DNA of 64,000 nt from Candidatus Limnocylindrales bacterium (lineage in GTDB: Bacteria > Desulfobacterota > Binatia > UBA1149 > CAITLU01): assembly GCA_035571835.1 (NCBI GenBank), contig DATNBU010000029.1, forward strand, positions 248,001-312,000, given 5' to 3'. The notes under the pieces are model-generated. The model saw nothing but the letters and a program-made list of their open reading frames with translations, was not told the DNA's origin and did no database searches. Position numbers and translations under genes: made by a program. This document shows, piece after piece, positions 37,500 through 53,877 of this stretch (positions are counted from its first letter, which is position 1; every line of letters starts with the position of its first letter).

Positions 37500-38213
37500 C
37501 TACTTTGCGGCCGCGCCGGGCGCGGCGACCGGCGGCGGCACGGGCGCATCGACAGCGCCGTTGCGGCGTTGATCTTCAACAGCGCGGCTTCCAGCGGGCG
37601 ATGCGGCGCGACTTGGGGCCGGCACATCGGCGCCGGTTGCCGCGGGCACATCGCCGGCCTGCGGAGTCAGCGCCCCGCCCGATCCGCGCTGCCGCTCGAC
37701 GTTCTCGAAGACCAGGTCGATGTAGTACTTCGCGTTGAGCCCGATCAGCGCAACTTCGTCCTTGCCGGAGCGTTTCGCATAGACCGAGGTCCGCGTCGGA
37801 TTGAGCTCTCCGAGAATGATCGTCGAGACCAGCGCGCCCTGCTGCTCGATGCGGATGCGCGCACGCGGCGGCACGAATCCGAACTGGCCTTCGTGCTCGA
37901 CTCCCTCGGAGACGATCTCGATCGGCGGCAGCGACGTGAAGCTTTCGAGCACGGCATCGATGACGTCGCCCGGCGGCGCCAGGCCTTCGGGCTCGGTGAC
38001 GATCCACTTCCCGTCCTTGCGCTCGAACTGGACCGCAAGGCCGTCCTTCTCGATTCGCACGCGGTCGATCCGCTCAGGAACGGCCTCGAGGAACGGCGTG
38101 GTCTGCTTGACGGTCGCAGCCGTGGCCGCTTCACGCTCGGCCGCGACGCCGTTCAGGTGCAGCGTCAGCGCGGCCGCCAGCGCGAAATAGACGACGATGC
38201 GCAGCCAGCTCAT
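37500..38213 (-). CDS. DUF4340-domain protein
   Basis: 237 residues from MSWLRIVVYF, whose ATG overlaps the stop of the upstream GldG-like gene. One membrane anchor (about 3-20) is followed by a DUF4340 region with repeated beta-strand units (DRVRIEKDGLAVQFERKDGKW; KYYIDLVFENV). A Pro/Ala-rich C-terminal tail follows. DUF4340 proteins commonly end Gld-type ABC operons; they face the periplasm and have no known activity. Confidence 0.75.
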   Translation of the reverse strand: MSWLRIVVYFALAAALTLHLNGVAAEREAATAATVKQTTPFLEAVPERIDRVRIEKDGLAVQFERKDGKWIVTEPEGLAPPGDVIDAVLESFTSLPPIEIVSEGVEHEGQFGFVPPRARIRIEQQGALVSTIILGELNPTRTSVYAKRSGKDEVALIGLNAKYYIDLVFENVERQRGSGGALTPQAGDVPAATGADVPAPSRAASPAGSRAVEDQRRNGAVDAPVPPPVAAPGAAAK

Positions 38214-39586
38214 TCGGAGTACCTGCGGCGCAGCAGCACGAAGATCGCGGCCGCGAGGAACAGCCCAGGCTGCCACAGCACGGAGAAACGAAAGATGTTC
38301 TGCAGGTCGCCTTCGCTGATAAACAGCTGGTTCTTGCCCGGCGTCTTCTGCTGCGGACGGCTGCCGATGAGCTCGTCCTCGCGCGCGAGCCAGCTTACGC
38401 CGTTGACGAGCAGGTCCTTGTTTCCGAGATAGTCGATGAAGCGGTTGGTCGCGAAATCCGAATCGCCGAAGACGAGCAGGCGCGTCTGGACGCCCGGCTC
38501 GGTTGCCTTCGTCGCGGGCTCGGTCACGAGCACTGCTACCGGAATCGGTCCGTTCACGTCACGGCCGGCGACGAAGCGCGCTTCGCTGCCCGCGATGATT
38601 CCCGGATCGTAGCTGGCCCAGCTCCGAACGCCGGTCTTCAGCAGCGTCGTCGCCGAGCGCCCGCTCGCTTCGTCGTCGTGCGCGACGACGGCTGCGGCCA
38701 GAGAGAACAGCGGCGGCGCCTTGAGCGTCGAGGAGATCAGCTGCTGGCGATTGACGTCGGAGAGCACCGTCGACCACGGCTCTCCGCCGGCCATGCGGTT
38801 TTCCGTATCGACGACGATGTTGGCGCCGACCGCAATCCCATACGATCCGAGCAGCGCGACCAGCTTTGGCGCGCGGAACGGATCGATCAGCACGAACAGC
38901 TTGCCGCCGCGGTCGAGCCAGCCGGAAAGCACGCGGGTTTCGGCTTCGAGAAAGTCGCTCTGCGGGCCGGGGATCAGGATCACGTCGGCGTCCGCCGGGA
39001 TTTCGGCGCCGCCGATGAGGCTCAGCTTCTCGACGATGAACGATTCGAGCGAAAGCGCGTCGCGCACCAGCGAGCAGCCGTCGTGCCGGTCGGTGTTTTC
39101 GATCGAGCATTCGCCGTGCCCGGTCAGCGCGTAGACCTTCTTCGGCTCCTGCAGCACCTTGAGGATCGCCGACATCAGCAGCTGCTCGCTCGGATTGCTG
39201 AAGTCGGCCCGCTTGCCGTCCGACTCGACGACCGTCGATCCGTACGAGCTGACGCCGTACTGCGCCGCCATCGCCGGATTGCGGTTGACGTCGACGATGT
39301 CGTACTCGATGTGCGGGTTCTCGTGCGAGACCTGCCACAGCAGGTCTTTCAGCGGAGTGTTGCGCGGGTCCTCGGTGCGGATGAACCCGCGGATCTTGAT
39401 CGGCTTGTCGACCTTGGCGAGCACCTGCTTTGCGTGAGCCGAAAGCGTGAAGCGGTTGCCGGACGAGAGGTCCCAGCGGACGTTGTACACGTAGGTCTCG
39501 CCGACGATGGCCATCAGCAGCCAGATGAGGCCGACCGTTGCCGCCGCAAGCTGGACCCAGCGCAGCCACGCGTGCGAGAGGTTCAC
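38210..39586 (-). CDS. GldG-like ABC auxiliary membrane protein
   Basis: 458 residues: membrane helix about 14-33, a large periplasmic domain typical of the ABC-type uncharacterised transport auxiliary family (RFTLSAHAKQVLAKVDKPIKI; QEPKKVYALTGHGE; LSGWLDRGGKLFVLIDP), and a C-terminal helix (LFLAAAIFVLLRRR). GTG start overlapping the permease stop. The preceding reading-frame extension is non-coding. It works with the ATPase and permease upstream. Confidence 0.83.
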   Translation of the reverse strand: MNLSHAWLRWVQLAAATVGLIWLLMAIVGETYVYNVRWDLSSGNRFTLSAHAKQVLAKVDKPIKIRGFIRTEDPRNTPLKDLLWQVSHENPHIEYDIVDVNRNPAMAAQYGVSSYGSTVVESDGKRADFSNPSEQLLMSAILKVLQEPKKVYALTGHGECSIENTDRHDGCSLVRDALSLESFIVEKLSLIGGAEIPADADVILIPGPQSDFLEAETRVLSGWLDRGGKLFVLIDPFRAPKLVALLGSYGIAVGANIVVDTENRMAGGEPWSTVLSDVNRQQLISSTLKAPPLFSLAAAVVAHDDEASGRSATTLLKTGVRSWASYDPGIIAGSEARFVAGRDVNGPIPVAVLVTEPATKATEPGVQTRLLVFGDSDFATNRFIDYLGNKDLLVNGVSWLAREDELIGSRPQQKTPGKNQLFISEGDLQNIFRFSVLWQPGLFLAAAIFVLLRRRYSE

Positions 39587-40329
39587 CGGCGTCCCCTCCA
39601 CTGCCGCGATTCCATCGATCGCATCGTCAGCCAGCCGGTCAGCACGACGATCGCGAGGTAGTACGCGATGTCCTTGAGGTCGACGACGCCGCGCGAGAAC
39701 GGCTCGAAATGGTCGTACGCGCAAAGCTGCGACAGGAAGAACAGCCAGTCGCCGGGTACCGAGGCCTCGTTCCAGGTCAGGTTCCACAGAAGCAGGATCA
39801 CGCCGTACGTGAACATCGCGGCGATCAGCTGCGTTTCGGTCATCGATGACAGCCAGATACCGATCGAAACCATAGCCGCGATCAGCAGCATCAACCCGAG
39901 ATAGATCGCGACGAGCTGGCTGATCTCGAACGGCTGCACGCGCCAGATCAGGTACGGATAGAGCGCCGTCGAGCCGACGATGACGACGAACACCGAAAAG
40001 CATGCGAGGAATTTGGCGGCAAGGATCTGGAAGTCGCGAAGCGGCGCCGTATACAGAAGCTCGATCGTGCCGAGATGCTTCTCTTCGGCATAGACGCGCA
40101 TCGTCACCAGCGGAATCACCGTGATGACGACCTTGACGATGTCCGCGTACAGGCGCTGCCAGAGATGCTCGAGAATGCTCTCGCCGAAGCTGAACGTGAT
40201 CATCGCGTTCAGGTTCGTGTAGAAGTAGTACCCCGACAGCGCGAGGAATACGGCGCCGACGAAGTAGACGAGCGGCAGGCTGAAGAAGCCCCGGAGCTCC
40301 TTGCCGAGCAGCGCGGCGAACTGTCTCAC
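39583..40329 (-). CDS. ABC-2 type permease (GldF-like)
   Basis: 248 residues with six predicted helices: N-terminal FAALLGKELRGFFSLPLVY is the ABC-2 permease amphipathic start, followed by YAEEKHLGTIELLYTAPL, the usual cytoplasmic loop contacting the ATPase. GTG start overlaps the ATPase stop (GTGA). Pairs with the upstream ATPase in an exporter of unknown cargo. Confidence 0.85.
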   Translation of the reverse strand: MRQFAALLGKELRGFFSLPLVYFVGAVFLALSGYYFYTNLNAMITFSFGESILEHLWQRLYADIVKVVITVIPLVTMRVYAEEKHLGTIELLYTAPLRDFQILAAKFLACFSVFVVIVGSTALYPYLIWRVQPFEISQLVAIYLGLMLLIAAMVSIGIWLSSMTETQLIAAMFTYGVILLLWNLTWNEASVPGDWLFFLSQLCAYDHFEPFSRGVVDLKDIAYYLAIVVLTGWLTMRSMESRQWRGRR

Positions 40330-41273
40330 GCGTCGGTGCTCCCGGACCGCGCGAGGATGTCGACGAACAGGTCCTCGAGGCTCATCAGCCGCGGGCTGAT
40401 CTCCTGCACCGCGCAGCCGCGTTCGACGAGCTTTTTCGCAAGCTCGGGGCGGATCGCCCCGCCGCTTCGCGACGTGACGGTGAGCGTCAGCGTGCCGTCG
40501 GCGGCGCGCTCGGTGACTTCGACGTTGTCGATCGCGCCGACGTCGCGCACGGCAGCGAGGATCGACTGCTCTCCGCCGCTTGCCCGCACCAGCGTTTCGC
40601 CGCGGCCGGCGGTCTTCTCGGTCAGCGCTTCGATCGAGTCGGTGGCGATGACCTTGCCGTGGTCGAGGATCAGCACCCGCCGGCACGTGACGCTGACTTC
40701 GGGAAGGATGTGGGTCGACAGCAGCACGGTCGCAAGGCCCGACAGCGTGCGGATCAGCGCGCGGATCTCGACGATCTGGCGCGGATCGAGGCCGACGGTC
40801 GGCTCGTCGAGGATCAGCACCTGCGGCTGGTGAATGATCGCCTGCGCGATGCCGACGCGCTGGCGGTAGCCCTTCGAGAGCTTTCCGATGTGCCGCCGCG
40901 CCATGCTCGTAAGGCCGCAGACGTCCATCGCGTCGGTGACCGCGCTCGCGACGCGCCCGTCGATGCCCCGCACCTTCGCGGTGAACGCGAGAAACCCCTC
41001 GACGGTCATGTCCGGGTAGAGCGCGACCCGCTCCGGCAGATAGCCGATGCGGCGGCGGGCTTCGCGCGGGTCGACCGTCATGTCGACGCCGGCAAGGCTG
41101 CAGGTGCCGGAGGTCGGCGCGAAGAAGCCCGTCAGCATGCGCATGATCGTCGTCTTGCCCGATCCGTTGGGACCGAGCAGCCCGACGATCTCGCCCCGCT
41201 CGATGCGGAACGAGACGTCGTCGACTGCGCGAAAACGCCCGTAATCCTTTGTGAGATGGGAAGCTTCGATCAC
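40326..41273 (-). CDS. ABC exporter ATPase (GldA-like)
   Basis: 315-residue ATPase: Walker A GPNGSGKTT (34-42), signature KLSKGYRQRVGIAQAI, Walker B VLILDEPTVGLDP, and a C-terminal extension of about 90 residues as in GldA/NosF-type proteins. It is first gene of a four-gene operon (ATPase, permease, GldG-like, DUF4340). In Bacteroidetes the GldAFG set is needed for gliding; in other phyla its cargo is unknown. Confidence 0.9.
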   Translation of the reverse strand: MIEASHLTKDYGRFRAVDDVSFRIERGEIVGLLGPNGSGKTTIMRMLTGFFAPTSGTCSLAGVDMTVDPREARRRIGYLPERVALYPDMTVEGFLAFTAKVRGIDGRVASAVTDAMDVCGLTSMARRHIGKLSKGYRQRVGIAQAIIHQPQVLILDEPTVGLDPRQIVEIRALIRTLSGLATVLLSTHILPEVSVTCRRVLILDHGKVIATDSIEALTEKTAGRGETLVRASGGEQSILAAVRDVGAIDNVEVTERAADGTLTLTVTSRSGGAIRPELAKKLVERGCAVQEISPRLMSLEDLFVDILARSGSTDA

Positions 41274-41379: not shown

Positions 41380-41640
41380 TCAATTCATGAGGCGAGCGAG
41401 CATCGAGATGAACGCGCCGAGACTGAGTCCCCACAGAAGATCCCGCTGCGCGACGGAGATGTTCGTGGCGGCGTATTCGGTCGACGCCGCGCGGACCAGG
41501 AACAGCACGGTGACGACGGCGAGCGCGACCCAGTAGCCGGCCGGCTGCTCCTCGCCGCGCGCCAGGCTGAACTGGCGCGACAACTGGAACAGCGAGGCGA
41601 GCACGAGCGCGATGCCGACGATGCGAATGGTGCGGAGCAT
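41380..41640 (-). CDS. Small membrane protein (86 aa)
   Basis: 86 residues with three hydrophobic stretches (about 4-20, 36-53, 66-82). No recognised family. It lies downstream of the RND transporter and a second tiny membrane protein in the same orientation, and the frame looks coding (ATG start, codon use like neighbours). A subunit or modulator of that transporter is a guess. Confidence 0.55.
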   Translation of the reverse strand: MLRTIRIVGIALVLASLFQLSRQFSLARGEEQPAGYWVALAVVTVLFLVRAASTEYAATNISVAQRDLLWGLSLGAFISMLARLMN

Positions 41641-41713
41641 GGTGCCGGAAAAGAGAAGCGGACGGCGCCTGCGGCGCCGCCCGCTTCATGGGTGGAACGA
41701 TGTCAGCCGAGGG

Positions 41714-41929
41714 TCACTCTTCGACCACTTTCGCGGCCTTGGCCATGCGCAGCAGCTCGATCTTCTCCACGTCTCCCGACGCGGCGAGCTTCTCCCAGTG
41801 CTTGAGCCGCCACTCCTTGATCACGTACTCGTCGAGCCCGACGACCAGGAAGCTGAAGCCGAGCACGATCGCGGTCGAGCTCCACATGTTGAGACTGTGC
41901 TGCAGGTAGTGGATCACGTCGTTGATCAT
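41714..41929 (-). CDS. Small single-span membrane protein (71 aa)
   Basis: 71 residues: one transmembrane helix (about 17-34) followed by a charged cytoplasmic-type tail (KEWRLKHWEKLAASGDVEKIELL). It starts 11 bp after the RND transporter stop, indicating co-translation. Its size and topology recall small accessory proteins of RND pumps such as AcrZ, though no sequence similarity is claimed. Confidence 0.62.
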   Translation of the reverse strand: MINDVIHYLQHSLNMWSSTAIVLGFSFLVVGLDEYVIKEWRLKHWEKLAASGDVEKIELLRMAKAAKVVEE

Positions 41930-41940
41930 CTGGATCCTCC

Positions 41941-44900
41941 TCAGGCGGTCTTGATGCGCACGAGCTTGCGGTTCTCGGCGTGTCCGGCTTCCTTCATGAT
42001 GAATTTCGGCTTGAACACGAGGATCAGCACCGGAGTCAGCGTCTGCGATCCGACGTAGCTGATGAACATCCAGATCGCGAGCAGCAGTCCCATCTCGGCA
42101 TTGAACCGGATGTTGGACGTTACCCAGAACAGCGTGCTGATGATCATCGTGACGGCCGTGAATGTGACGGCCTTTCCGGACGTCACCAGCGCCTCGCGCA
42201 CCGACTTCTCGAGGTCACTGTTGACCTGGATCTCCTCGATGATGCGGCTGACGATGTAGAGACCGTAGTCGATGCCGAATCCGACGCCGACCGTGACCAG
42301 CGGCAGCGTATGGATGTTCACGCCGATGTCGTTCATGGCCATGTACGCGTTCACCATCATGTTCGACAGCACCAGCGGGCCGAGCAGATAGAAGCCCGAC
42401 ATCGCCGAACGATACGTGAACAGCAGGATGATCCAGATCGTGAAGAACCCGAGGAAGTTCATCAGCAGGTCGTTGCGGACGAGCTCGGCGTTAGCTGCCG
42501 CGAGCACTCCGATCAGGCCGCCGGCGAGACGGAACCTCGCTTTCCACGGCGGGGAGATGTCGGCGTCGACCATCTGGCCGCCGCGGTCGATCTTGACGGA
42601 AATCGACCGCGAATCCTCGGCCGCCTTGTGGAGCCCGGAACGATAGTCGACCGCCGACCACAGGCCGATGGTATGCAGAACCTTCTGGAAGCCGCCCTGA
42701 TGCTCGGCGCGCGCGTTGTCGTCGAGGTACTCGACGTCCTGGCCGTTGATTGCCGCGATCCGGTCGCCGACCTTGAACGGGCTGTCGACCGTGCCGCCGA
42801 CGTGCTTGCCGATCCACGACTTCTCGTGGTTCGACCACTTCGGCGTCGGCAGGATGCTCTTGACGATGACGTCCTTGCCGTTGTCGCTGCCGACGTCGAT
42901 GCCGAGCGTCGTGTTCTCGCTGCGCGCGATGTACTCGTTCGAGCGCTCGATCACGCGATTGATGTTCGAGCCCTTGTGGTCGCGGGCGAAGAACGTCACG
43001 TGCGCGGTCGAATAGTCGGTCGAGACGTACTTGGCCGTCTCGGTCGGCGGCGATCCCGAGAAGAAGATGAAGAACAGGCCGCCGACGTCGACCCAGTTGT
43101 TCGGGATGACGCCCCACTTCGGCTCGAGCTCGTGGAACACGCTGTTGACGGCGCGAAGGATGTCGGCCAGCGAGAAGCTGTAGCCGATCGACGGGTCACG
43201 CTCGAGGAAGCGCTGGAAGCCCTCCATGTCCTTGAGCTGGTGCGGGTCTTTCATCGCGTTCTTGTCGTAGCCCTCGGCCACGATGATCAGCGGCTCGACG
43301 CCGCCGAACTTGCCCTGAACCGCGTTGTGCGACTGGTTGTACGGCGAATCGAGCCACAGCAGCGGCGAGGCCGAATGCGGATCGCCGATCGTCAGGCCGC
43401 GCGCAAAGTAGAACGCGACTGCGGCCGCGGTCAGCCATGATCCGATGGTCACCCAGCGGCCGAGCGGGCTCATCAGCACGTCGACGAAGCGCTCGATCAT
43501 GCGGCGGAACCCGCCGCGCTCGCGCAGCATGACGAGCTCAGGCTCGGGCGCTTTCAGGTAGTAGTACACGATCGGGTTCAGCATCATCTCGGAGATCGTG
43601 ATGGCCAGAATCCACCACGATGCAGTCACGGCGAGCTTCTGCAGCATCAGCACCGGGACGAGAAGAATGACGAGAACGCCGAACGCGTCCGTCGCGATAC
43701 CCGAGAACGTCGGCACGAACAGCTCGGCGAACGACGCGACGATGGCTCGCCGTTTGTTCCAGCCGCAGCGCTCGAATTCCTCGTAATATCGATCGTGCAT
43801 CTGGATCGCGTGACTTACCGCTCGAGCGGTAATCAGGAACGGCATCACGAGCATCAGCGGATCGAGCGCGAGGCCGATCAGGTGAATGAAGCCCATGCCC
43901 CAGAACGCGGCGATCAGGCCGGTGATGGTCGGACGCAGCGCGCCGCGCCAGTCGTGGAAGTAGAACCAGCGCAGCACCCATTCGATGCAGTACGTGATGA
44001 CGAGGATGAAGAAGACGTCGCCGGCGTAGTTGTAGACCCATCCGTACAGGCGCGGCTCGCCGGCGGCCCATACCCTGACGTTCGATCCACCCGACGCGAT
44101 CGTCGCCTCGCCCGGCTTGCCGTCGCGCAGGTAGGAAACCTTGACGGGGCCGGTGTTCTCCTTCTTGGCCTTGATGATCGCCGAGCTGATTTCCCACCGG
44201 CGCATGGCGGTCTTGCCGTTGATCGCGGTGATGACGTCGCCTTCCTCGAGTCCGCCCTGGGAAGCCGAGGAGGTCTTCTTGTCGAAGATGCGCTTGACGA
44301 TGATGCCGGTGCCCTTCTCGACCTTGAGGGCCTCGGCACGATCCGGCTCGACGTCGACCAGCTGCGCGCCCGTCCAGCCTTCGGTGAACGGCGCGATCAC
44401 GCGCTCGTTCATCTCTTCGAAGATGCGGTTGTACTCGAGTCGGCCTTCGATGAAGTTCGCACGGACCAGCGCGGCCTTGTCGTCGAGAGAGACGAGAATG
44501 CCGAAGACGTTCTCCGAGTTGTGAACGATGCGCCGGATGTCGGCGGCATCGTCGGCCGTGCGCGGCATGTCGATCATGATCGGCTCGGAGCGCAGCGTTC
44601 CGGCGGCGGCGACGCGCAGATGGCGCGTCGTGCGGTGTCCGATCGAATCGATCTGGCTGTGGTTCACGCCGTAGACGCGGTCCATCTCCTGCGTCATCAG
44701 GTAGATCTGGCCGAGGTTCTCGACGTTGAAGATGTTGCCTTCTTCGACCTCGGCCATCATCACGATGTTGTTCGCGCCGCCGAAATCCTTCGAGTACGTG
44801 TTGTGAATCTGCACGTACGGATGGGTCTGCGGAAGCAGCTCGCCGAAGCTCGTCACCAGGTTGAGCTGGAAGCTCCAGTAGGCGAACAGGCCGGTAACGA

Positions 44901-45000
44901 ACAGCACGATGATGGAGACGGGGTGCCTCAGGTCGATGAGCCGGTCACCGATCCAGTAGAGAAGGCGCTTGTCCGCCGGGACTTCGTAATTGATCGCCAT
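41941..45000 (-). CDS. RND/MMPL transporter with two PDZ domains
   Basis: 1019-residue inner-membrane transporter with the duplicated RND layout: one helix, a large periplasmic loop and five helices in each half. TM4-type GVGFGIDYGLYIVSRI in the second half is typical of MMPL. Each periplasmic loop contains a PDZ-like domain: residues about 215-305 (GLEEGDVITAINGKTAMRRW) and about 733-830 (FKVGDRIAAINGQDVEYLDD). PDZ modules are not part of standard MmpL/HpnN/AcrB structures that I know. It probably exports lipids or hydrophobic compounds with the Ycf48-like lipoprotein encoded 33 bp upstream. Confidence 0.88.
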   Translation of the reverse strand: MAINYEVPADKRLLYWIGDRLIDLRHPVSIIVLFVTGLFAYWSFQLNLVTSFGELLPQTHPYVQIHNTYSKDFGGANNIVMMAEVEEGNIFNVENLGQIYLMTQEMDRVYGVNHSQIDSIGHRTTRHLRVAAAGTLRSEPIMIDMPRTADDAADIRRIVHNSENVFGILVSLDDKAALVRANFIEGRLEYNRIFEEMNERVIAPFTEGWTGAQLVDVEPDRAEALKVEKGTGIIVKRIFDKKTSSASQGGLEEGDVITAINGKTAMRRWEISSAIIKAKKENTGPVKVSYLRDGKPGEATIASGGSNVRVWAAGEPRLYGWVYNYAGDVFFILVITYCIEWVLRWFYFHDWRGALRPTITGLIAAFWGMGFIHLIGLALDPLMLVMPFLITARAVSHAIQMHDRYYEEFERCGWNKRRAIVASFAELFVPTFSGIATDAFGVLVILLVPVLMLQKLAVTASWWILAITISEMMLNPIVYYYLKAPEPELVMLRERGGFRRMIERFVDVLMSPLGRWVTIGSWLTAAAVAFYFARGLTIGDPHSASPLLWLDSPYNQSHNAVQGKFGGVEPLIIVAEGYDKNAMKDPHQLKDMEGFQRFLERDPSIGYSFSLADILRAVNSVFHELEPKWGVIPNNWVDVGGLFFIFFSGSPPTETAKYVSTDYSTAHVTFFARDHKGSNINRVIERSNEYIARSENTTLGIDVGSDNGKDVIVKSILPTPKWSNHEKSWIGKHVGGTVDSPFKVGDRIAAINGQDVEYLDDNARAEHQGGFQKVLHTIGLWSAVDYRSGLHKAAEDSRSISVKIDRGGQMVDADISPPWKARFRLAGGLIGVLAAANAELVRNDLLMNFLGFFTIWIILLFTYRSAMSGFYLLGPLVLSNMMVNAYMAMNDIGVNIHTLPLVTVGVGFGIDYGLYIVSRIIEEIQVNSDLEKSVREALVTSGKAVTFTAVTMIISTLFWVTSNIRFNAEMGLLLAIWMFISYVGSQTLTPVLILVFKPKFIMKEAGHAENRKLVRIKTA

Positions 45001-45033
45001 GGATGTTTCCTTTGTTTCGAGGGCAGTCGGCGA

Positions 45034-46179
45034 TTAGCCGAGGCGGCGGAACCAGGTTTTGCCACCGTCGGTGGTATTCATGATGAAGCCGAAGCCTCCG
45101 ACCATCCAGCCAACGTTGTCATCGTAGAATTCAACGTTGCGAATCCAGTTGTTGACCTGCGTGCCGAGGTTGCCCTTGGCGAGAGTTCCGCCCGGCGGTG
45201 CGTAGACCGCCTGCCCCGATCCTCCCACGGCCCAGACCGCGCCGCTCGGAAGCAGATCCACCGAGTAAAATGGTGCGTCGTATTCCTTGATGCCGTGCGG
45301 AGCCCAGCTCCAGGTTTCTCCGCCGTCGGAGGTCTTCGCGATGCGGCCCTCGAGACCGACGGCATAGCCGTCGTTGGCGTTGCGGAACTCGACGTCGAAG
45401 AACGTCGGCAGCTCCATGATGTCGAAATACTCTTCGCCGACGAGGCTCGCCTGCTTGTCGTGCCACGTCGCGCCGCCGTCGGTCGTTTTCAGGATCTTGC
45501 CGAACTCTCCGACGACGTATCCGACCTGCGGGCTCAGGAACTGGACGTCGTAGAGGACGGGATCCTCGAACGCGATACCCGCGTTTTCATCCATCGCGCC
45601 GGTGACGACCGGACGAAGAGTCGACGTCGTCCAGGTCTTTCCGCCGTCCTTGGTGATCGTGATCGTCGAGCGGTCGCCGATGGCCACCGCGTTGTTCGCG
45701 TCGATCGCGCTGATCGCGAACAGCGGAGCGAGCGGACACTTGTCCGACTCGTCGGTCGCGTCGATGTCGCCGCCGGAAGCGCGACAGTCGTCGGTCATGT
45801 AGATCTTGCCGCCCTGCGCGGTCCAGGTCTTGCCGCCGTCGGTGGTCTTCTGGATCGTTGCGCCCTGTCCGACGATCCAGCCCGACTTCTTGTCGGCAGC
45901 GAAGCTGATGCTGTAGAGGCCGTTCTTGCTTCCGCTGTCGATGATGTTCCAGGTGGTTCCGAAATCGGAAGTCTGAAGCAGCTTGCCGTTGTATCCGACG
46001 ATCAGGGCTTCTTTCGGACTCAAAATTTCAAGGTCGTAGAAACGGTCGGATACGTAGACCTTCTGGGTCAGCATATCCTCCATGGCTTCATGCCGGTGGC
46101 AGCCCGTGGTGACCGCGGTTGCGGCAAGGACCGCCAGTGGCAGACCTCGCCACCGACCTGAAAGGGCATTGGATCCCAT
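45034..46179 (-). CDS. Ycf48-like beta-propeller lipoprotein
   Basis: 381 residues from MGSNALSG behind GGAGAG; lipobox TTGC near residue 24. At least five Ycf48/BNR-type repeats with the T-x-D-G-G-x-T-W signature (KTTDGGKTW, KTSDGGETW, NTTDGGKTW) build a seven-bladed-type propeller. Photosynthetic Ycf48 assembles photosystem II, but non-photosynthetic homologues accompany MMPL transporters, as here. It is likely a periplasmic partner or assembly factor of the RND protein. Confidence 0.87.
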   Translation of the reverse strand: MGSNALSGRWRGLPLAVLAATAVTTGCHRHEAMEDMLTQKVYVSDRFYDLEILSPKEALIVGYNGKLLQTSDFGTTWNIIDSGSKNGLYSISFAADKKSGWIVGQGATIQKTTDGGKTWTAQGGKIYMTDDCRASGGDIDATDESDKCPLAPLFAISAIDANNAVAIGDRSTITITKDGGKTWTTSTLRPVVTGAMDENAGIAFEDPVLYDVQFLSPQVGYVVGEFGKILKTTDGGATWHDKQASLVGEEYFDIMELPTFFDVEFRNANDGYAVGLEGRIAKTSDGGETWSWAPHGIKEYDAPFYSVDLLPSGAVWAVGGSGQAVYAPPGGTLAKGNLGTQVNNWIRNVEFYDDNVGWMVGGFGFIMNTTDGGKTWFRRLG

Positions 46180-46361: not shown

Positions 46362-46922
46362 TTATTTCTTCTGGGCGTCGTCTGGGAAGTATTCGTTGCG
46401 GTCTGCGCCTTCGGCCAGCGTCTGCTGGTCGATTCTCCAGGCCCCGTTCTCCTTGATCAGCTCGTAGATCTCGTGCTCGTCCAGACCGAGTTGGTTTAAG
46501 AACTTGTCCTGCGATTTCAGGATATTGGGAACGCGCGCGACACCGTCGGCACCGATGATGGCAGGGTACACCTTGAAGTCGATGATCTTCACCTCGCCCA
46601 TCTGCATGACGTACTGCTGCTCCTTGGCCCATTCGTCGACGCTCTTGCCGGCGCGAAGCGTGGTCGAGACGTACTGGTAGGCGTCCTTGAACCGCTGTTC
46701 CTGCATCGCCTTGAGATAACTCGCGACGACCTTGTCCGGCGTGAGTGCGGCGGAGTCGGCCGGAGCTGCGGCTGCCGGAGCCGCTGGTGCAGCAGGCGCA
46801 GCCGCCGCCGGTGCAGCGGGAGCCGGTGGCGTCTTGGCCGGCTCTGCAGCGCGCGCGGCAAAGGCGGAAAGGCAGAGAATCGACGAGAGAGCGACAGATA
46901 GAGGGCGGATTGGCGAAGGCAT
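46362..46922 (-). CDS. Exported NTF2-like protein with Ala/Pro linker
   Basis: 186 residues starting at MPSPIRPLS; the longer frame is not coding-like. Signal peptide ends near AARAAEP, followed by an Ala/Pro linker to about residue 57. The remaining 125 residues look like an NTF2-like/DUF4878 fold (VVASYLKAMQEQRFKDAYQYV; ENGAWRIDQQTL). It may be a periplasmic binding module. It is divergent from the SCP2 gene and upstream of the Ycf48/RND cluster. Confidence 0.65.
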   Translation of the reverse strand: MPSPIRPLSVALSSILCLSAFAARAAEPAKTPPAPAAPAAAAPAAPAAPAAAAPADSAALTPDKVVASYLKAMQEQRFKDAYQYVSTTLRAGKSVDEWAKEQQYVMQMGEVKIIDFKVYPAIIGADGVARVPNILKSQDKFLNQLGLDEHEIYELIKENGAWRIDQQTLAEGADRNEYFPDDAQKK

Positions 46923-47588: not shown

Positions 47589-47996
47589 TCAGGATACCGG
47601 GATGCCGGCGAAGACTTCGCCGATTACTTTGAGGACGACTTCGTCGTCGAAAGGTTTGGACATGTAGAGGTCGGCGCCGGTTTCGAAGGCGCGCTGTTCG
47701 TCGGAGCGCTGGCCCTTGGCGGTCAGGATGATCACGTACATGCCCATCAGGTTCGCGTCCTGGCGGATGGCCCTGCAGACTTCGTAGCCGTCCATTTTCG
47801 GCATCATCACATCCAGCAGCACGACTTTCGGCCGCAGTCGGCGCACGGCGGCGAGGCCTTCGATGCCGTCGGACGCGGTCGCTACTTCGACGCCTTCGGC
47901 GTCGAGGATGAACGCGACGGTCTCGCGGATGTTCGCCTCGTCATCGACGAGCACGACGCAGTCGCGAAGGTGCGAGTTGCGGAAGCGCGCGGTCAT
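47589..47996 (-). CDS. Single-domain response regulator
   Basis: 135 residues: a CheY-type receiver with Asp18/Asp19, phosphoacceptor Asp62 in LLDVMMPKMDGYEV, Thr in ILTAKG and Lys in SKPF; no output domain. The start ATG overlaps the enoyl-CoA hydratase stop, an odd pairing that ties a signalling receiver to an acyl-CoA catabolic operon. No cognate kinase is adjacent. Confidence 0.88.
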   Translation of the reverse strand: MTARFRNSHLRDCVVLVDDEANIRETVAFILDAEGVEVATASDGIEGLAAVRRLRPKVVLLDVMMPKMDGYEVCRAIRQDANLMGMYVIILTAKGQRSDEQRAFETGADLYMSKPFDDEVVLKVIGEVFAGIPVS

Positions 47997-48778
47997 TTTT
48001 GCGGTACCCACGCGGCCGGACGCTTTTCGAGAAACGCGGTCATGCCTTCGACGGCTTCGTCGGATACGCGAAGCCGCGCAATCAGGTCGGCGGTGTAACG
48101 CAGCGCCGCGTCGCCATCGAGCCCGCACACCGTATCGACGAGTGCCTTGGCCGCGATGAGCGCATTCGGACCGGCCTTGGCAAGATCCCCGGTAATGCGG
48201 GTGACGGCTTCGTCGAGCGCCGCGTCCGGCGCGACGACGTCGACCAGTCCATGCTCGCGCGCGGTCTTTGCATCGATCGGCTCGCCGGTCAGGAACAGGC
48301 GCTTGGCGGTCACGCGGCCGAGCCTTCGGATGCAGAACGGCGAGATCACCGCCGGCACGATGCCGAGACGGACTTCGGAGAATTGAAAGCGCGTGCTCTC
48401 GGCAGCGACGACGATGTCGCAGGCCGCCATCAGCCCTACCCCACCGCCGATCGCCGGCCCGTGCACGCGCGCGAGCACCGGCTTCGCACACGATGCGATG
48501 CGATGGAACAGGCCGCCCATGCGATGCGCATCGCTGCGGTTCGCGTCGTCGGACGAGTCGCGCGAGCTCCGCATGCTGCGAAGGTCGGCGCCCGCGCAGA
48601 ATGCCGGACCCTCGCCTGCAATGACGAGAGCGCGCACCGACGGGTCCGATTCGAACGCCGCGATCGCATCGCCGACTTCTTCCATGAGCTCGCTGCTCAG
48701 CGCGTTTCGCACTTCGGGCCGGTTGAGCGTGATCCAGCCGAGGCTGTCCTTGATCGAGGTGAGGATCGTCGTGCTCAT
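47993..48778 (-). CDS. Enoyl-CoA hydratase/isomerase
   Basis: 261-residue crotonase-family protein: oxyanion-hole segments GEGPAFCAGADL and GPAIGGGVGLMAACD, with Glu in FSEVRLGIVPA at a catalytic position. MSTTILTSI at 48778 is preferred to a GTG 15 bp upstream. It begins 4 bp past the AtuA-like gene stop, so it likely hydrates an intermediate of the same pathway, such as an isohexenylglutaconyl- or methylglutaconyl-type CoA. Confidence 0.87.
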   Translation of the reverse strand: MSTTILTSIKDSLGWITLNRPEVRNALSSELMEEVGDAIAAFESDPSVRALVIAGEGPAFCAGADLRSMRSSRDSSDDANRSDAHRMGGLFHRIASCAKPVLARVHGPAIGGGVGLMAACDIVVAAESTRFQFSEVRLGIVPAVISPFCIRRLGRVTAKRLFLTGEPIDAKTAREHGLVDVVAPDAALDEAVTRITGDLAKAGPNALIAAKALVDTVCGLDGDAALRYTADLIARLRVSDEAVEGMTAFLEKRPAAWVPQK

Positions 48779-48782
48779 ACGC

Positions 48783-50552
48783 TCATTCCACACCGTCCAG
48801 CAGATCCTCGGCCACTTCGATCTCCATCGTCAGCAGCCCCTGCGACGCGGTCTTGCCCTGGTTGTCGAGCTGCAGCGACAGCGTGCCTCCGCCTCCGAGC
48901 GCCTGCTGCATCGTAAAGTTCATCGCGCCCAGGTTGTCGAGCCGGTAACGCGAGACCTTGCCCCGGGCGAGCGATTTGTAGAACTGCGCGACGCGCTCGG
49001 CGGTAAGCTCGCGCACCAGCTCGGGATAGAATTCTCTCTTGAGCGCAATCACGCCGATGTTGCAGACGTCGCCTTTGTCGCCGGAGCGCGCATGCGCGAC
49101 TTTTCCGAGCGGCACGCGAACGCGACGGCCAGGAGCAGCTTCGGGCACGGGTCCTTCCTCCGGACGTTCGATCGGCCCGCCCGGCCCACTGTCGCACGGA
49201 AAGTCTTCGGACGCGCCATCGAAAAACAGCCGCTGCGTAACCAGCCGCCGCGGGATGAGCGCCGGCCAGTATCCGTATGCCGGCTGCGGCGACGGTCGCC
49301 CTCCCGCTCCGCAGATCCCGGGCGGACCGGACAGCGCAATGCCCGCGAGCTCGCGTGCGAAAGATTCCATCGACTTCTTGTCGAACGAGCGGCAGCCGAA
49401 GCGCAGCGCGACCTCGTTCGGCACCACCGCCGGCGCCGCCGACTCTCCCCAGCACGCGTTGTAGCCGATGTATTCGGTGCGCGTTTCCTCGAAGCTGCCC
49501 TTCACGCGGCTCCAGAAGATGTCGGCAAAGCGGCGCGCCTTGCGCACCGATTCGGGGCCGCTGACGACGACGATCGCCTGGGCTTTCATCCCGGCTTCGT
49601 ACGTCATCGAAACCTTGAGCGTATCGGTCGGCATTCGCCCGCGCACGCCGGAAATCCGAACGCGGTCATTTCCTTCGTCTTCCATTGCGAACGACGTGAA
49701 ATCGGCGACGACATCGGTCGACGCGTAAAATCGCGGATCGCCGATCTCATACAGGACCTGCTCGGATGCGGTGCGACGGCTGACGAGACCACCGGTGTCC
49801 GGATGCTTGGTCAGTACGAAGCTTCCGTCCGGCGAGCATTCGACGAGCGGATAGCCGAAATTCTCGAACGAGCGCACTTCTTCCCAGCGCGTGTAGTTGC
49901 CGCCTGTCACCTGCGCGCCGCACTCGATCAGATGACCGGCAAGAAGACCGGACGCGAGCTTGTCGTAATCTTCCCAGCTCCAGCCGAACTCGTGCACCAT
50001 CGGCGCGAGAACCGACGCGGCATCATACGTGCGGCCGGTGACGACGATGCGCGCGCCTTTCGCGAGCGCCGCGGCTATCGGTCTTGCCCCGATGTACGCG
50101 TTCGCCGAGTTGACCTTTGCGAGGCGCTCTCCGATCGGCTCGCCGGTATCGAGGTGCGGAAACTTGCAGCCCGCCGCTGCGAGGTCGCCGAGACGCAGCT
50201 GCAGGTCGTCGCCGTCGACGATCGCGACCGGAAGCTTGACGCCGGCGTCGTTCGCGGCGGCGTCGAGAGCGCGCGCACAGGCACCCGGATTGATGCCGCC
50301 GGCGTTCGCGATGACGGTGATTCCCTTCTCGGCAATCTCGCGCATCAGCGGCCGCAGGTACGCCACGAAGTCGCGCGCGTAGCCGGCCTGCTCGCTCTCG
50401 GCTTTCTGCCTGGCGAGGATGATCATCGTGATCTCGGCCAGGTAGTCCATCGTCAGGTAGTCGATCGGACCACCGCGCACCTGGCGCGCGATCGCAGCAC
50501 CTTCGTCGCCCCAGTAGCCGCTCGCGTTCGCGATGATGATCTTGTCTTTCAT
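48783..50552 (-). CDS. AtuA-like acyclic terpene utilisation protein (DUF1446)
   Basis: 589 residues: N-terminal DUF1446/AtuA region (IIIANASGYWGDEGAA; IVTGRTYDAASVLAPMVHEFGW) plus the C-terminal alpha/beta module about residues 485-585 (PLGKVAHARSGDKGDVCNIGVIA) found fused in AtuA. AtuA is needed for citronellol/geraniol catabolism in Pseudomonas, but its reaction is not established. Neighbours (enoyl-CoA hydratase downstream, carboxyltransferase upstream) match the Atu/Liu type of pathway. A 0.9-kb repeat island separates it from the carboxyltransferase. Confidence 0.85.
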   Translation of the reverse strand: MKDKIIIANASGYWGDEGAAIARQVRGGPIDYLTMDYLAEITMIILARQKAESEQAGYARDFVAYLRPLMREIAEKGITVIANAGGINPGACARALDAAANDAGVKLPVAIVDGDDLQLRLGDLAAAGCKFPHLDTGEPIGERLAKVNSANAYIGARPIAAALAKGARIVVTGRTYDAASVLAPMVHEFGWSWEDYDKLASGLLAGHLIECGAQVTGGNYTRWEEVRSFENFGYPLVECSPDGSFVLTKHPDTGGLVSRRTASEQVLYEIGDPRFYASTDVVADFTSFAMEDEGNDRVRISGVRGRMPTDTLKVSMTYEAGMKAQAIVVVSGPESVRKARRFADIFWSRVKGSFEETRTEYIGYNACWGESAAPAVVPNEVALRFGCRSFDKKSMESFARELAGIALSGPPGICGAGGRPSPQPAYGYWPALIPRRLVTQRLFFDGASEDFPCDSGPGGPIERPEEGPVPEAAPGRRVRVPLGKVAHARSGDKGDVCNIGVIALKREFYPELVRELTAERVAQFYKSLARGKVSRYRLDNLGAMNFTMQQALGGGGTLSLQLDNQGKTASQGLLTMEIEVAEDLLDGVE

Positions 50553-50587
50553 GCTTCCGTCATCTCCACTCTCGTCCTCTTGTCGGC

Positions 50588-50796
50588 GTCAGTGCGTGGC
50601 GTTTTTATCGGCCCGGCAAGGGGCCATGCCCTGTCGGCGGGTTCTCGCCTTCGCACCGCTCCACCGCCGCGCGCCCCGCCACGCTTCGGCTCGATAGGCT
50701 CGCCGCGCTCCTCTCCACCGCCGCTCCCCGCCCCTCGCTTGGCTGCGCCAGCCGCCGCCATGGCACAGCCCCTCGCCGGCCCTCCAGGAGAACGTT
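50588..50796 (-). repeat. Left arm of ~205-bp inverted repeat
   Basis: Its reverse complement aligns along its whole length with 51260-51462, including TCCTGGAGGGCCGGCG, GGCTGGCGCAG, GCGGCGAGCCTATCGAGCC and GTGCGAAGGCGAGAACCCGC. By eye roughly four bases in five match. The arm ends about 35 bp before the AtuA-like start codon. Confidence 0.88.
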
Positions 50797-51170
50797 TGCC
50801 GTGCGATCTTCCGGAAAAGCGGACATGCGAAGACGCAGAGACGCGCCCAGTGTGCCCAATCGACCACCACAGCCCATAGTTGGAGCCGGCAGGTTGCGAG
50901 AATGCGATTCGATCATGCTGCTTCGACGCGCTCACGTTCCGTAGTCACCTGGCACGGCGATGATGAAGAAAATCGCCGAACCGACCCTCGCCCTCCGACG
51001 CAGACTCTCCCTACGATGATCGCCGGGACCCGGTGCATCTCGCGAAACTTCCAGTGTGGACAATTCTGGCGCTTCTACAACGAAGAGAATTGCGAAGCAC
51101 AATCGCCGGCGCACTTCGATACTGGAGCCCCACGGACGTTCGGTTGGCGTAGACGCAAGCATTGGAGCAT

Positions 51171-51262
51171 TGCAGGATCGGCACAGTTCCATCGCCAGCG
51201 TCGCAAGATCGGCACGGTCTCACCGTCGGCGTCGCAGGAACGGCATGGTCCTGTTGCCGGCG
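51171..51262 (+). repeat. Three 30-31-bp direct repeats
   Basis: Units at 51171-51200, 51201-51231 and 51232-51262 share the pattern TCGCAAGATCGGCACGGTC followed by CACCGTCGGCG, with several substitutions each. They abut the right arm of the inverted repeat. There are no spacers, so this is not CRISPR; an imperfect relative lies beside the left arm (about 50797-50815). Confidence 0.65.
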
Positions 51263-51462
51263 TGTTCCTGGAGGGCCGGCGGGGGCGGTGCCGCAGAGGC
51301 GGCTGGCGCAGACAAGCGAGGGGCGCGGTGCGGTGGCGGAGCGGAGCGCGGCGAGCCTATCGAGCCGTAGCGTGGCGGGGCGGACGTGGTGGAGAGGTGC
51401 GAAGGCGAGAACCCGCCGACGCGGCACTGCCCCCGTCGGCCCGATACCAACGCAACGCACAC
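51260..51462 (+). repeat. Right arm of ~205-bp inverted repeat
   Basis: Partner of 50588-50796 in the opposite orientation; see that entry for matching blocks. It ends 23 bp from the carboxyltransferase stop codon. Two copies in opposite orientation next to two gene ends suggest independent insertions of a dispersed element or a MITE-like structure. Confidence 0.88.
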
Positions 51463-51485
51463 ACCGATCGCATGAGCGAGAAAGG

Positions 51486-53093
51486 TCACATGCGAAACAC
51501 GCCGTTGCGAGTAGCCTGCACGGGCGCCTGAAGCGCCGCTTCGAGCGCAAGCCCGAGCGCCGCGCGCGTGTCGAGCGGATCGATGACGCCGTCGTCCCAG
51601 AGGCGCGCCGTGCTGTACCACGGGCTGCCTTCGGCCTCGTACGTCGAGACCACCTGGTCGTGCATCGCCTTCTCGAATGCCGGGTCGAGCTCCTGACCTT
51701 CGGTCGCAAGCTGCGCCTTCTTGACCTGCACCAGCGTGCTCGCCGCCTGCTCTCCGCCCATGACCGAGATGCGCGAGTTCGGCCACATGAACAGGAACCG
51801 CGGACTGTAGGCGCGGCCGCACATCGCGTAGTTCCCGGCGCCATGCGATGCGCCGATGATCACCGTCAGCTTCGGCACCTCGGCATTGGCGACCGCGTGG
51901 ACCATCTTCGCGCCGTCCTTGGTGATGCCGCCGTGCTCGTAGCGCCGTCCGACCATGAAGCCGGTGATGTTCTGCAGGAACAGGATCGGCGTGCGCCGCT
52001 GGCAGCACAGCTCGATGAAGTGCGTCGCCTTGAGCGCCGCCTCCGAGAAGATCACGCCGTTGTTCGCGATGATCCCGATCGTCCTGCCGTAGAGCCGCGC
52101 GAAGCCGGTGACGATCGTCGTGCCGTAGCGCTGCTTGAATTCGTGGAAGCGGCTGCCGTCGACGAGGCGCGCGATGACCTCGCGGCAGTCGTACGGCGTG
52201 CGCGTGTCCTTCGGGATGATTCCGTAGAGCTCGGCCGGATCGTAGTGCGGCTCCTCGGACGCTTCGCGCTCGAGCGGGCCGCCTGCGCCCATGACGAGGT
52301 TCTCGAACACGTCGCGCGCGATCGCGAGACCGTCGCGGTCGTTGGCGGCGAGATGATCGGCGACGCCGGAAATCCGCGTATGGACGTCGCCGCCGCCGAG
52401 CTCTTCGGCAGTGACCTCTTCACCGGTTGCCGCTTTGACGAGCGGCGGCCCGCCGAGAAAGATCGTGCCCTGATTGCCGACGATGATGTTCTCGTCGCAC
52501 ATCGCCGGCGTGTACGCGCCTCCCGCGGTGCACGAGCCCATCACGACCGCGACCTGCGGAATTCCCGCCGCCGACATGCGCGACTGCAGGTAAAAGCCGC
52601 GCCCGCCGTTGTGCGCGTCGGGAAAGATCTCGGCCTGAAGCGGCAGGAACGCACCGCCGGAATCGACGAGGTAGACGGTGGCGATGCGGTTCTCGAGCGC
52701 GATCGTCTGCGCGCGGATCTGCTTCTTGACGGTCATCGGATAGACCGTGCCGCCTTTGACGGTCGCGTCGCTGCAGATGACCATGGCCAGACGTCCGCGG
52801 ATGCGACCGATGCCGGTGATGCAGCCGGCCGCCGGGGCTTCGCTTCCGTACATCTCCCACGCAGCGAGCGGCGACAACTCGAGAAACGGCGATCCGGGAT
52901 CGAGCAGGCCCTCGACGCGGTCGCGCGGCAGCAGCTTTCCGCGCGACAGATGGCGCTGGCGCGCCTTCTCGGTGCCGCCGATTCGAACCTGTGCGAGCTT
53001 TGCACGAAGCTCCGCCGCGAGCGCCTCGTTCACGCGCAGGTTTTCGGCGAACTCCGGCGCGGAAGTGCGCACCTGCGAAATCAGTCGCTGCAT
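51486..53093 (-). CDS. Acyl-CoA carboxylase carboxyltransferase subunit
   Basis: 535 residues, the length of methylcrotonyl-/geranyl-CoA carboxylase beta subunits (LiuB/AtuC). Start [11 protein letters not shown]; the earlier frame runs into the Ala/Pro tail of the next gene. CoA-binding N-domain includes [17 protein letters not shown] and [13 protein letters not shown]; biotin C-domain includes [12 protein letters not shown] and [20 protein letters not shown]. It transfers CO2 from biotin to the gamma carbon of an unsaturated acyl-CoA. No biotin carboxylase/biotin carrier subunit is present in the window, so the partner must lie elsewhere. Confidence 0.92.
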
Positions 53094-53103
53094 CGACTGC
53101 GGT

Positions 53104-53877
53104 TCAGTGCGCGGCCGGCGGCGTTGCCGGAGCAGGTGCCGTTGCCGGCGCGGGCGGCGTTGCCGCAGCAGGCGGCGGTGATGCAGGAGCCGCCGATGGT
53201 GCGACAGCGGGCGGTGATGCAGGCGCCGGTGCAGGGACATCGGCGCCGATGGACCGATCGTACTTGAGCGACGTCAACGACCCGTAGAACTGATTGTAGT
53301 AGAGCTCGTCCTGGTACTTCTGCGACTTGGTGATGCCCTGGATCACGAGGTACTGCTTGCGGTCCGGCGACGTCAGCACGAAGTAGACCTCGTATCCGTC
53401 CGGATCGCCTTTGATCGGAGAGTGGACGAGCAGCCGGTACGTGTACATGTCCGGCACCGAGCTGACCGCCTGCACGGGATCGGCCGAGACCACGTCGTCC
53501 TTGCGCTGGTCGGAGATCTGCTTGCGGCTGAGCTCGCCCAGCGACTGCGCGCTCTCGATCTTGACACCGTCCGGGATGTCGTGCGCTTCGAATGCGGCTC
53601 CGAACAGCGTGTTGATCGCGGCATCGTCCTCCGCGGACTTCTTCTCGGCGTAGACGAGCGACAGCGTGTCCGGGCTGACCGACATCTGCCGCCAGCCGTC
53701 CGCTTGCGGCGGCTGGTACTTGAAGTGCCCGAGTGTGTACTCCTTGGACGGCACGACGAGCTGCAGCATCTCCTGCGCGCTCGACGGTCGAGGCAGCAGG
53801 GCCATGCCCGAAAGCACGCCGAGCGCGAGCATCCATGCACGAGTTCCGATAAGGGATTTCTTTTCGATTGCGAGCAT
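53104..53877 (-). CDS. Exported hypothetical protein with Ala/Pro tail
   Basis: 257 residues from MLAIEKKSL. Signal peptide ends near PSSAQEM. The middle (30-200) is an unrecognised domain that reads like a small lipid- or protein-interaction fold ([32 protein letters not shown]). The last 50 residues are Ala/Pro repeats, a wall-spanning or linker tail. It lies 10 bp upstream of the carboxyltransferase on the same strand. Confidence 0.62.

Follow-up and report, generated by a model that had tools for sequence, protein, structure and literature searches.

An MMPL-type RND transporter with a PDZ domain inserted in each periplasmic loop and an apparently mosaic history

A stretch of 64,000 nucleotides from contig DATNBU010000029.1 (assembly GCA_035571835.1, Candidatus Limnocylindrales bacterium, placed by GTDB in the class Binatia), hereafter the window, encodes an RND transporter of the HAE3/MMPL type that carries a PDZ domain in each of its two large periplasmic loops. 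The pump gene stands between several smaller genes (Table 1). The gene of a YCF48-like beta-propeller lies 33 bp upstream on the same strand and is itself preceded by that of p215, for which a Pfam scan gave a weak DUF4864 match below the cut-off. On the other side, the gene of a 71-residue microprotein starts 11 bp past the pump stop codon, its ATG being preceded by GGAGG, and an 86-residue open reading frame (ORF) follows. For the small proteins, signal peptides and transmembrane stretches were assessed by eye.

Table 1. Features of the pump locus. Coordinates are window positions; the listed genes are all on the minus strand, and the reading order runs along descending coordinates.
Feature	Coordinates	Strand	Basis
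p215, from the ATG at 46922	46362..46922	-	secreted by inspection; Pro/Ala-rich linker and small conserved domain
YCF48-like beta-propeller, 381 residues, putative lipoprotein	45034..46179	-	PF14870, 3.2e-35
HAE3/MMPL-type RND transporter, 1019 residues, two PDZ inserts	41941..45000	-	ORF, Pfam, structure model
PDZ1, residues 206-305, HtrA/DegQ type	44086..44385	-	Pfam, alignment, profile, model
PDZ2, residues 695-816, divergent PDZ	42553..42918	-	alignment, profile, model
71-residue microprotein, single-span by inspection, C-terminal half conserved	41714..41929	-	ORF, conservation, ribosome-binding site
Terminator-like hairpin with T-rich tail, between the 71- and 86-residue genes	41655..41687	-	consensus match only
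86-residue small protein, hydrophobic by inspection	41380..41640	-	conserved; weak DUF2304 match below cut-off
GldA-like ABC ATPase, first gene of the downstream ABC cassette	40326..41273	-	domain scan
ABC-2 permease, ABC_transp_aux (GldG-like) and DUF4340 genes of the same cassette	37500..40341	-	domain scan

With an MMPL domain (PF03176, 78.2 bits against a cut-off of 20.5), a twofold fold whose N- and C-terminal halves align to each other (E 5e-14) and two large periplasmic loops, the transporter belongs to the MMPL/HAE3 type of the RND superfamily. The model of the whole pump (mean predicted local distance difference test score, pLDDT, 90.6; predicted template modelling score 0.85) has MmpL5 and MmpL4 as its nearest structural neighbours, with NPC1L1, Patched, AcrB-type pumps and HpnN lower down, and the top PDB match by sequence is MmpL3. 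The RND fold is common to the window pump and MmpL4/MmpL5, MmpL3 and HpnN, at about 11-13% identity in structural alignments; the titles of the MmpL4 entries name a coiled-coil domain, not a PDZ domain. The pump stays below the curated NCBIfam scores of HpnN (44.6 of 751.85 bits), MmpL3 (44.7 of 1400) and BstA (20.7 of 1400).

The sequence-only reading of this DNA had placed a PDZ domain in both periplasmic loops, and domain and structure prediction indeed give PDZ folds there rather than ordinary porter domains. PDZ1 passes the Pfam thresholds in the whole protein (PF00595, 7.8e-11, 42.7 bits against a gathering score of 23.2; PF13180, 1.7e-10, also above its gathering score, the domain alone reaching 37.3 against 27) and is modelled at pLDDT 93-97 within the whole pump. 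A profile built from 21 PDZ1 sequences covers nearly the whole of DegQ/DegP PDZ1 (E 5e-25). This likeness to DegQ/DegP runs almost from end to end, whereas the PDZs of the window have no protease domain and are embedded in a transporter. In the PDZ domain of DegQ, an L-L-G-I loop binds carboxylates; its position in PDZ1 is occupied by G-W-x-G-A in 17 of the 21 rows, and by G-Y-x-G-A or A-W-x-G-L in the other four.

PDZ2 remains under the Pfam cut-off and is recognized by profile and fold. A profile built from 12 PDZ2 sequences identifies the PDZ of a site-2 protease homologue (E 3e-9) and DegQ (5e-6). A piece of the relative L059 scores 24.2 against a cut-off of 27. When the PDZ2-only model was submitted to Foldseek, the 50 matches listed bore titles of PDZ domains, PDZ-type proteins or proteases, many of them Deg/HtrA, with probabilities of up to 1.00, yet a best E value of just 0.01. 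VIA-align returned Z scores of up to 8.4 (HtrA PDZ, root-mean-square deviation 2.8 over 85 residues), a level at which Z (about 8) can reflect a common arrangement. Judged by profile and predicted fold, PDZ2 is a PDZ domain, though a divergent one. In the model of the whole pump, PDZ2 is of good quality except for residues 761-780 (pLDDT about 60). The window PDZ2 also holds about 20 extra residues (approximately 761-785, positions 42646-42720) that are missing in the other 11 aligned PDZ2 sequences.

Both domains are inserted at corresponding points of the RND repeat. PDZ1 follows the final porter helix of loop 1 and precedes the strand that leads to transmembrane helix (TM) 2; PDZ2 occupies the equivalent point, before the strand into TM8. 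The junctions are clean, PDZ1 lying between '..PF' and '..AGEPRLYGW' and PDZ2 between '..YI/FI..' and '..FRLAGGLIGVL'. Once the PDZs are cut out and the two halves globally profile-aligned, the junctions 206/306 and 694/817 stand opposite each other within about 3 residues.

Insert lengths in 65 aligned homologues (the window protein and 64 ORFs, a 102-residue fragment and one remote second copy being left out) define four architectures, with both PDZs in 5, PDZ1 only in 16, PDZ2 only in 7 and none in 37. The search for MMPL proteins with internal PDZs that the sequence-only reading had proposed thus found, within the class, relatives with both domains and with either one alone. The core of the window protein is 75-76% identical to that of the nearest PDZ-less clade, which is nested among the PDZ-bearing pumps. 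Pfam is consistent with the alignment: among 52 relatives scanned, PDZ_2 was detected in 25, the same number as that of rows with an insert (counts being compared, not members), while all 27 insert-less rows are devoid of a Pfam PDZ. PDZ1 pumps occur in 24 of the 148 genomes of the class (23 full-span matches and one cut short) and PDZ2 pumps in 13. In evenly drawn phylum samples, they were found in 5 of 297 and 3 of 395 genomes, respectively, all in the window's own class. Named relatives are limited to two 'Deltaproteobacteria' metagenome-assembled genomes and one uncultured bacterium.

The PDZs had also been described as duplicated like the RND fold itself, which holds for their position and fails for their origin. 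Indeed, forms without a PDZ outnumber the others, PDZ1 and PDZ2 resemble each other only remotely (hhalign profile-profile alignment, probability 96, 23% identity) and their distributions differ; for these reasons, the PDZs are plug-in cassettes and not products of the RND duplication. A careful tree of 36 rows, which omits L061, L095, L066 and L100 and keeps only 6 of the outer PDZ-less rows, requires 3 gain or loss changes for PDZ1 and 2 for PDZ2; it places 4 outer PDZ-less rows within the PDZ clade (support 84/95). A quick tree of all 65 rows requires 3 and 1. The PDZ1 tree, built on few columns and with three HtrA rows under half filled, separates two subtypes; a single clade is not rejected by the approximately unbiased (AU) test (p 0.24), yet is absent from the best tree. 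A recent capture of PDZ1 from the HtrA-like proteins of the same genome was rejected, as their PDZ matches are just 26-29% identical.

The two parts of the pump core do not point to the same relatives. In a comparison by segments, the porter parts and PDZ1 are nearest to PDZ1-only pumps of the window's own order, whereas the nearest relatives of the membrane parts are pumps from other orders, either PDZ2-only or nested PDZ-less, with a near tie between the groups at residues 601-650. Orders were taken from the kinship labels of the relatives, and the groups were named after the segment profile had been seen. The split recurs at 75 diagnostic sites, one of which lies outside both regions: the porter (residues 61-206 and 551-694) has 21 sites that agree with the own order against 2 that agree with the other group, whereas in the membrane parts (10-60, 306-550 and 817-1008) only 1 follows the own order, 49 the other group and 1 neither (Fisher p 5e-15, sites treated as independent). 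Control sites in the neighbouring genes follow the own order for YCF48 (21 own, 0 other, 2 neither), p215 (12, 0 and 1) and GldA (11, 2 and 2, the rows being those of the window and L054 only against 4 of the 7 of the other group).

Trees built on these columns behave likewise. The porter columns group the both-PDZ pumps with the own order (100/99), and the membrane columns group them with PDZ2-only pumps (93/90), where they do not form one clade. AU tests reject the grouping of each tree on the data of the other (0.0003 for the membrane; 0.007 and 0.0014 for the porter). L061, L095, L066 and L100 were left out of both trees, and the membrane tree carried a long-branch warning. An assembly error does not account for the pattern, because it is shared by five separate genomes. 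By sequence comparison, the pump appears to be a mosaic in which the porter, PDZ1, YCF48 and p215 match the own order, and the membrane domain, PDZ2 and the microproteins match PDZ2-only pumps of other orders.

Recombination, in one direction or the other, would be the likeliest cause of this conflict. Unequal rates could produce a similar picture if the membrane domain of the own-order PDZ1-only pumps had evolved fast, perhaps after the loss of the microproteins; the branch of this domain is long (0.64), the tree program flagged long branches meeting, and the grouping submitted to the AU tests was decided with the profile already in view. This explanation is nevertheless held to be unlikely, given the opposite site counts of porter and membrane with their Fisher p value, and AU probabilities of 0.0003 (membrane) and 0.007 (porter). 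Moreover, membrane-domain path lengths bring the window closer to a pump of another order, L058 (0.34), than to one of its own family, L055 (0.44), and a fast branch located elsewhere leaves this unexplained.

Neighbouring genes were compared across the same architectures; blind ORF clustering of neighbours, confounded by antisense ORFs, was not used. The YCF48 gene adjoins the pump in all 16 PDZ1-only loci, all 7 PDZ2-only loci, 2 of 5 both-PDZ loci (window and L054), none of 6 nested PDZ-less loci (some on short contigs) and 18 loci of other PDZ-less pumps. It stands elsewhere in the genome in 3 of the 5 both-PDZ and 4 of the 6 nested PDZ-less genomes, the two remaining nested genomes giving no match. 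The gene of p215 is found in 35 of the 148 class genomes and is kept with most pumps of the clade, with gaps among both PDZ-bearing and PDZ-less members. As a PDZ partner it was discarded, being present in 4 nested PDZ-less genomes and G014 and giving no match in the PDZ2-bearing G062, G082 and G411. The 71-residue protein, likened earlier, along with the 86-residue one, to pump accessory subunits on account of its size, accompanies 9 of 12 PDZ2-bearing pumps, 5 of 6 nested PDZ-less pumps and none of the 16 PDZ1-only pumps (window counted in). It is a conserved gene whose distribution tracks the membrane module, and an accessory role is thereby supported in part; as PDZ1 partners, the microproteins were discarded because the 71-residue protein was found in none of the PDZ1-only loci. 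The 86-residue ORF is conserved among relatives as well.

Periplasmic carriers and outer-membrane barrels were considered on the side of the PDZ ligand. The window genome has 12 matches to DUF1329 (LolA-like), the nearest at 11285-12622, about 29 kb off, and one to DUF1302, located on another contig. Of the DUF1329 proteins, 8 share a similar tail with GR as the last two residues; three others terminate in GRG, GH and TH, respectively, and one differs. In relatives encoded beside PDZ1-only pumps the usual ending is GH or SH, and next to some PDZ-less pumps a distinct tail is conserved. These tails were set aside as PDZ ligand: they are largely conserved, but not hydrophobic. The C-terminus of the DUF1302 protein is W-Q-F. 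HtrA-type PDZs bind barrel tails with an aromatic last residue, and it is for this reason only that such a tail may be regarded as a candidate ligand, by analogy. The titles of the PDZ2 matches in VIA-align include DegS with YQF and YRF peptides.

Two described systems resemble the locus in part. AmeD of Castellaniella defragrans is, like the window pump, an HAE3 RND protein with 12 TMs and two periplasmic loops, encoded directly downstream of a COG4447 (photosystem II assembly factor-like) gene, and deletion of AmeABCD lowers monoterpene tolerance (PMC6394551, available portion). AmeD has 787 residues against 1019 for the window pump, the AmeABCD cassette includes DUF1302 and DUF1329 genes that are not adjacent to the pump in the window, the term PDZ occurs nowhere in the paper, and the part of the account available mentions no microproteins (PMC6394551). 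The window locus thus has the YCF48-like gene beside the RND gene in common with AmeABCD-type cassettes, and differs from them in lacking DUF1302 and DUF1329 in the cassette and in having two PDZ inserts instead of porter loops without extra domains. The other system is that of Pseudomonas putida PP_2018 and PP_2019, the former of which we take to be YCF48-like.

In the available sections of the P. putida study, PP_2018 is called a periplasmic protein, PP_2018, PP_2019, PP_0766 and PP_0765 are required for growth on Tween 20, and AlphaFold contacts are rated by the authors as strong for PP_2018 with PP_2019 and weak for PP_0766 (DUF1329) with PP_2019 (PMC10866462). Compared by description, a periplasmic protein and an efflux transporter that work with DUF1302 and DUF1329 proteins correspond to the window locus, whereas the available text describes no PDZ (PMC10866462). 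Both systems, the latter with PP_0765/PP_0766, are taken to move hydrophobic compounds together with a LolA-like DUF1329 carrier and an outer-membrane barrel. A 'nanopod'-type cluster of benzene degraders also groups DUF1329, YCF48-related and MMPL genes, but differs by its porin-like and universal stress proteins, and a PDZ is not mentioned in the part of the report at hand (PMC13101534). No paper on a PDZ in an RND or MMPL transporter was found in open-access PubMed Central by title and beginning of the abstract; the individual parts are known, and their combination, a PDZ at the same spot of both RND halves, is in no paper found.

In the reading preferred here, given a probability of about 0.58, the pump resides in the inner membrane, belongs to the YCF48/DUF1329-associated HAE3 lineage of RND transporters, that of AmeD and PP_2019, and would move hydrophobic compounds or lipids between the two membranes and the periplasm, its PDZs docking the C-termini of periplasmic or outer-membrane partners. 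In each porter domain, the HtrA-type PDZ, placed after the last helix and ahead of the TM2 or TM8 strand, would act on the periplasmic side as a docking module gripping the C-termini of partners, which may be periplasmic carriers or, through their C-terminal aromatic residue, outer-membrane barrels. In this way, the PDZs would substitute for, or reinforce, a docking surface which relatives lacking them do without. The ligand, the direction of transport and the docking role itself are what we infer from sequence and structure models.

Several observations weigh against this docking reading. The nested clade has neither PDZ, so that both are dispensable there. PDZ1 is less constant than the core: in the comparison with L054, 84% of its residues are identical, against 92% for the core. 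The window PDZ2 alone scores 20.3 bits, under the Pfam gathering score of 23.2. Among the neighbouring genes tested, none tracks the presence of PDZs, YCF48 and p215 accompanying PDZ-less pumps too. The known DUF1302-DUF1329-YCF48-RND organization of the locus is absent, and the 11 DUF1329 ends in GR, GRG, GH or TH are never hydrophobic.

The main competing view has no separate partner: the PDZs would be structural spacers or allosteric clamps within the RND protomer or trimer, acting in interprotomer contacts or gating. Their symmetric placement in both halves, the way they are fused directly to the last porter helix on one side and to the TM2 or TM8 strand on the other, and the divergence of PDZ2, with its extended stretch between strands, all fit such a role, and AcrB, too, carries inserted domains placed symmetrically in its two halves. 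However, the HtrA-like N-terminal loop is kept in most of the 21 PDZ1 sequences, and pumps with 75-76% core identity manage without either PDZ, so neither is needed for the basic fold; spacers or clamps are therefore considered improbable. Far less probable is docking of the YCF48-like beta-propeller, a partner suggested in the sequence-only reading. Its gene is adjacent in every PDZ1-only and PDZ2-only locus, but equally in 18 PDZ-less loci, and it lies apart from the pump in 3 of 5 both-PDZ and 4 of 6 nested PDZ-less genomes; on this co-occurrence it was rejected as PDZ ligand. The strong contact predicted between PP_2018 and PP_2019 in the available part of the P. putida study (PMC10866462) would also speak against it if PP_2019 lacks PDZs. 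Scarcely more credit, and if anything slightly less, is given to a link with periplasmic quality control, to which the PDZs would present the pump, or from which they would shield it, or in which they would catch misfolded barrels like DegS/DegP. Among solved structures, PDZ1 is nearest to DegQ/DegP PDZ1, but no protease was found among the neighbouring genes scanned, and the synteny is with transport genes.

Further genes of the window touch on transport or metabolism. In many families of the class, the cassette of GldA, ABC-2 permease, ABC_transp_aux and DUF4340 genes (37500-41273) keeps its synteny with the RND gene, alongside PDZ-bearing and some PDZ-less pumps, DUF4340 having been scanned in the window only; this synteny suggests a common function of cassette and pump. 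The hairpin between the microprotein genes, a consensus match, perhaps reduces transcription into this cassette. Upstream, at 47993-53240, lie what are, judging by their sequence, presumably genes of an AtuA-like protein, an enoyl-CoA hydratase and an acyl-CoA carboxylase. These genes would fit a breakdown of terpenoid or branched acyl-CoA beside the pump.

To our knowledge, how HAE3/MMPL pumps without AcrA-like adaptors pass their substrates to periplasmic carriers is an open question. The natural versions with and without PDZs on a similar core make docking testable by deletion or grafting at the two junctions. The mosaic history suggests that YCF48 and p215 are partners of the periplasmic half and the microproteins partners of the membrane half. 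Tentatively, and as a proposal somewhat short of even odds, RND pumps of this class may consist of two exchangeable modules: one formed by porter, PDZ1, YCF48 and p215, which would stay in the lineage, and one formed by the TM helices, PDZ2 and the 71- and 86-residue proteins, which would move between orders, the PDZs being plug-in docking domains that recruit partners. If this is true, modular pump genes would be a natural record of which part of the pump talks to which partner, and this pump could reveal how transporters of its kind come together from parts that can be swapped.

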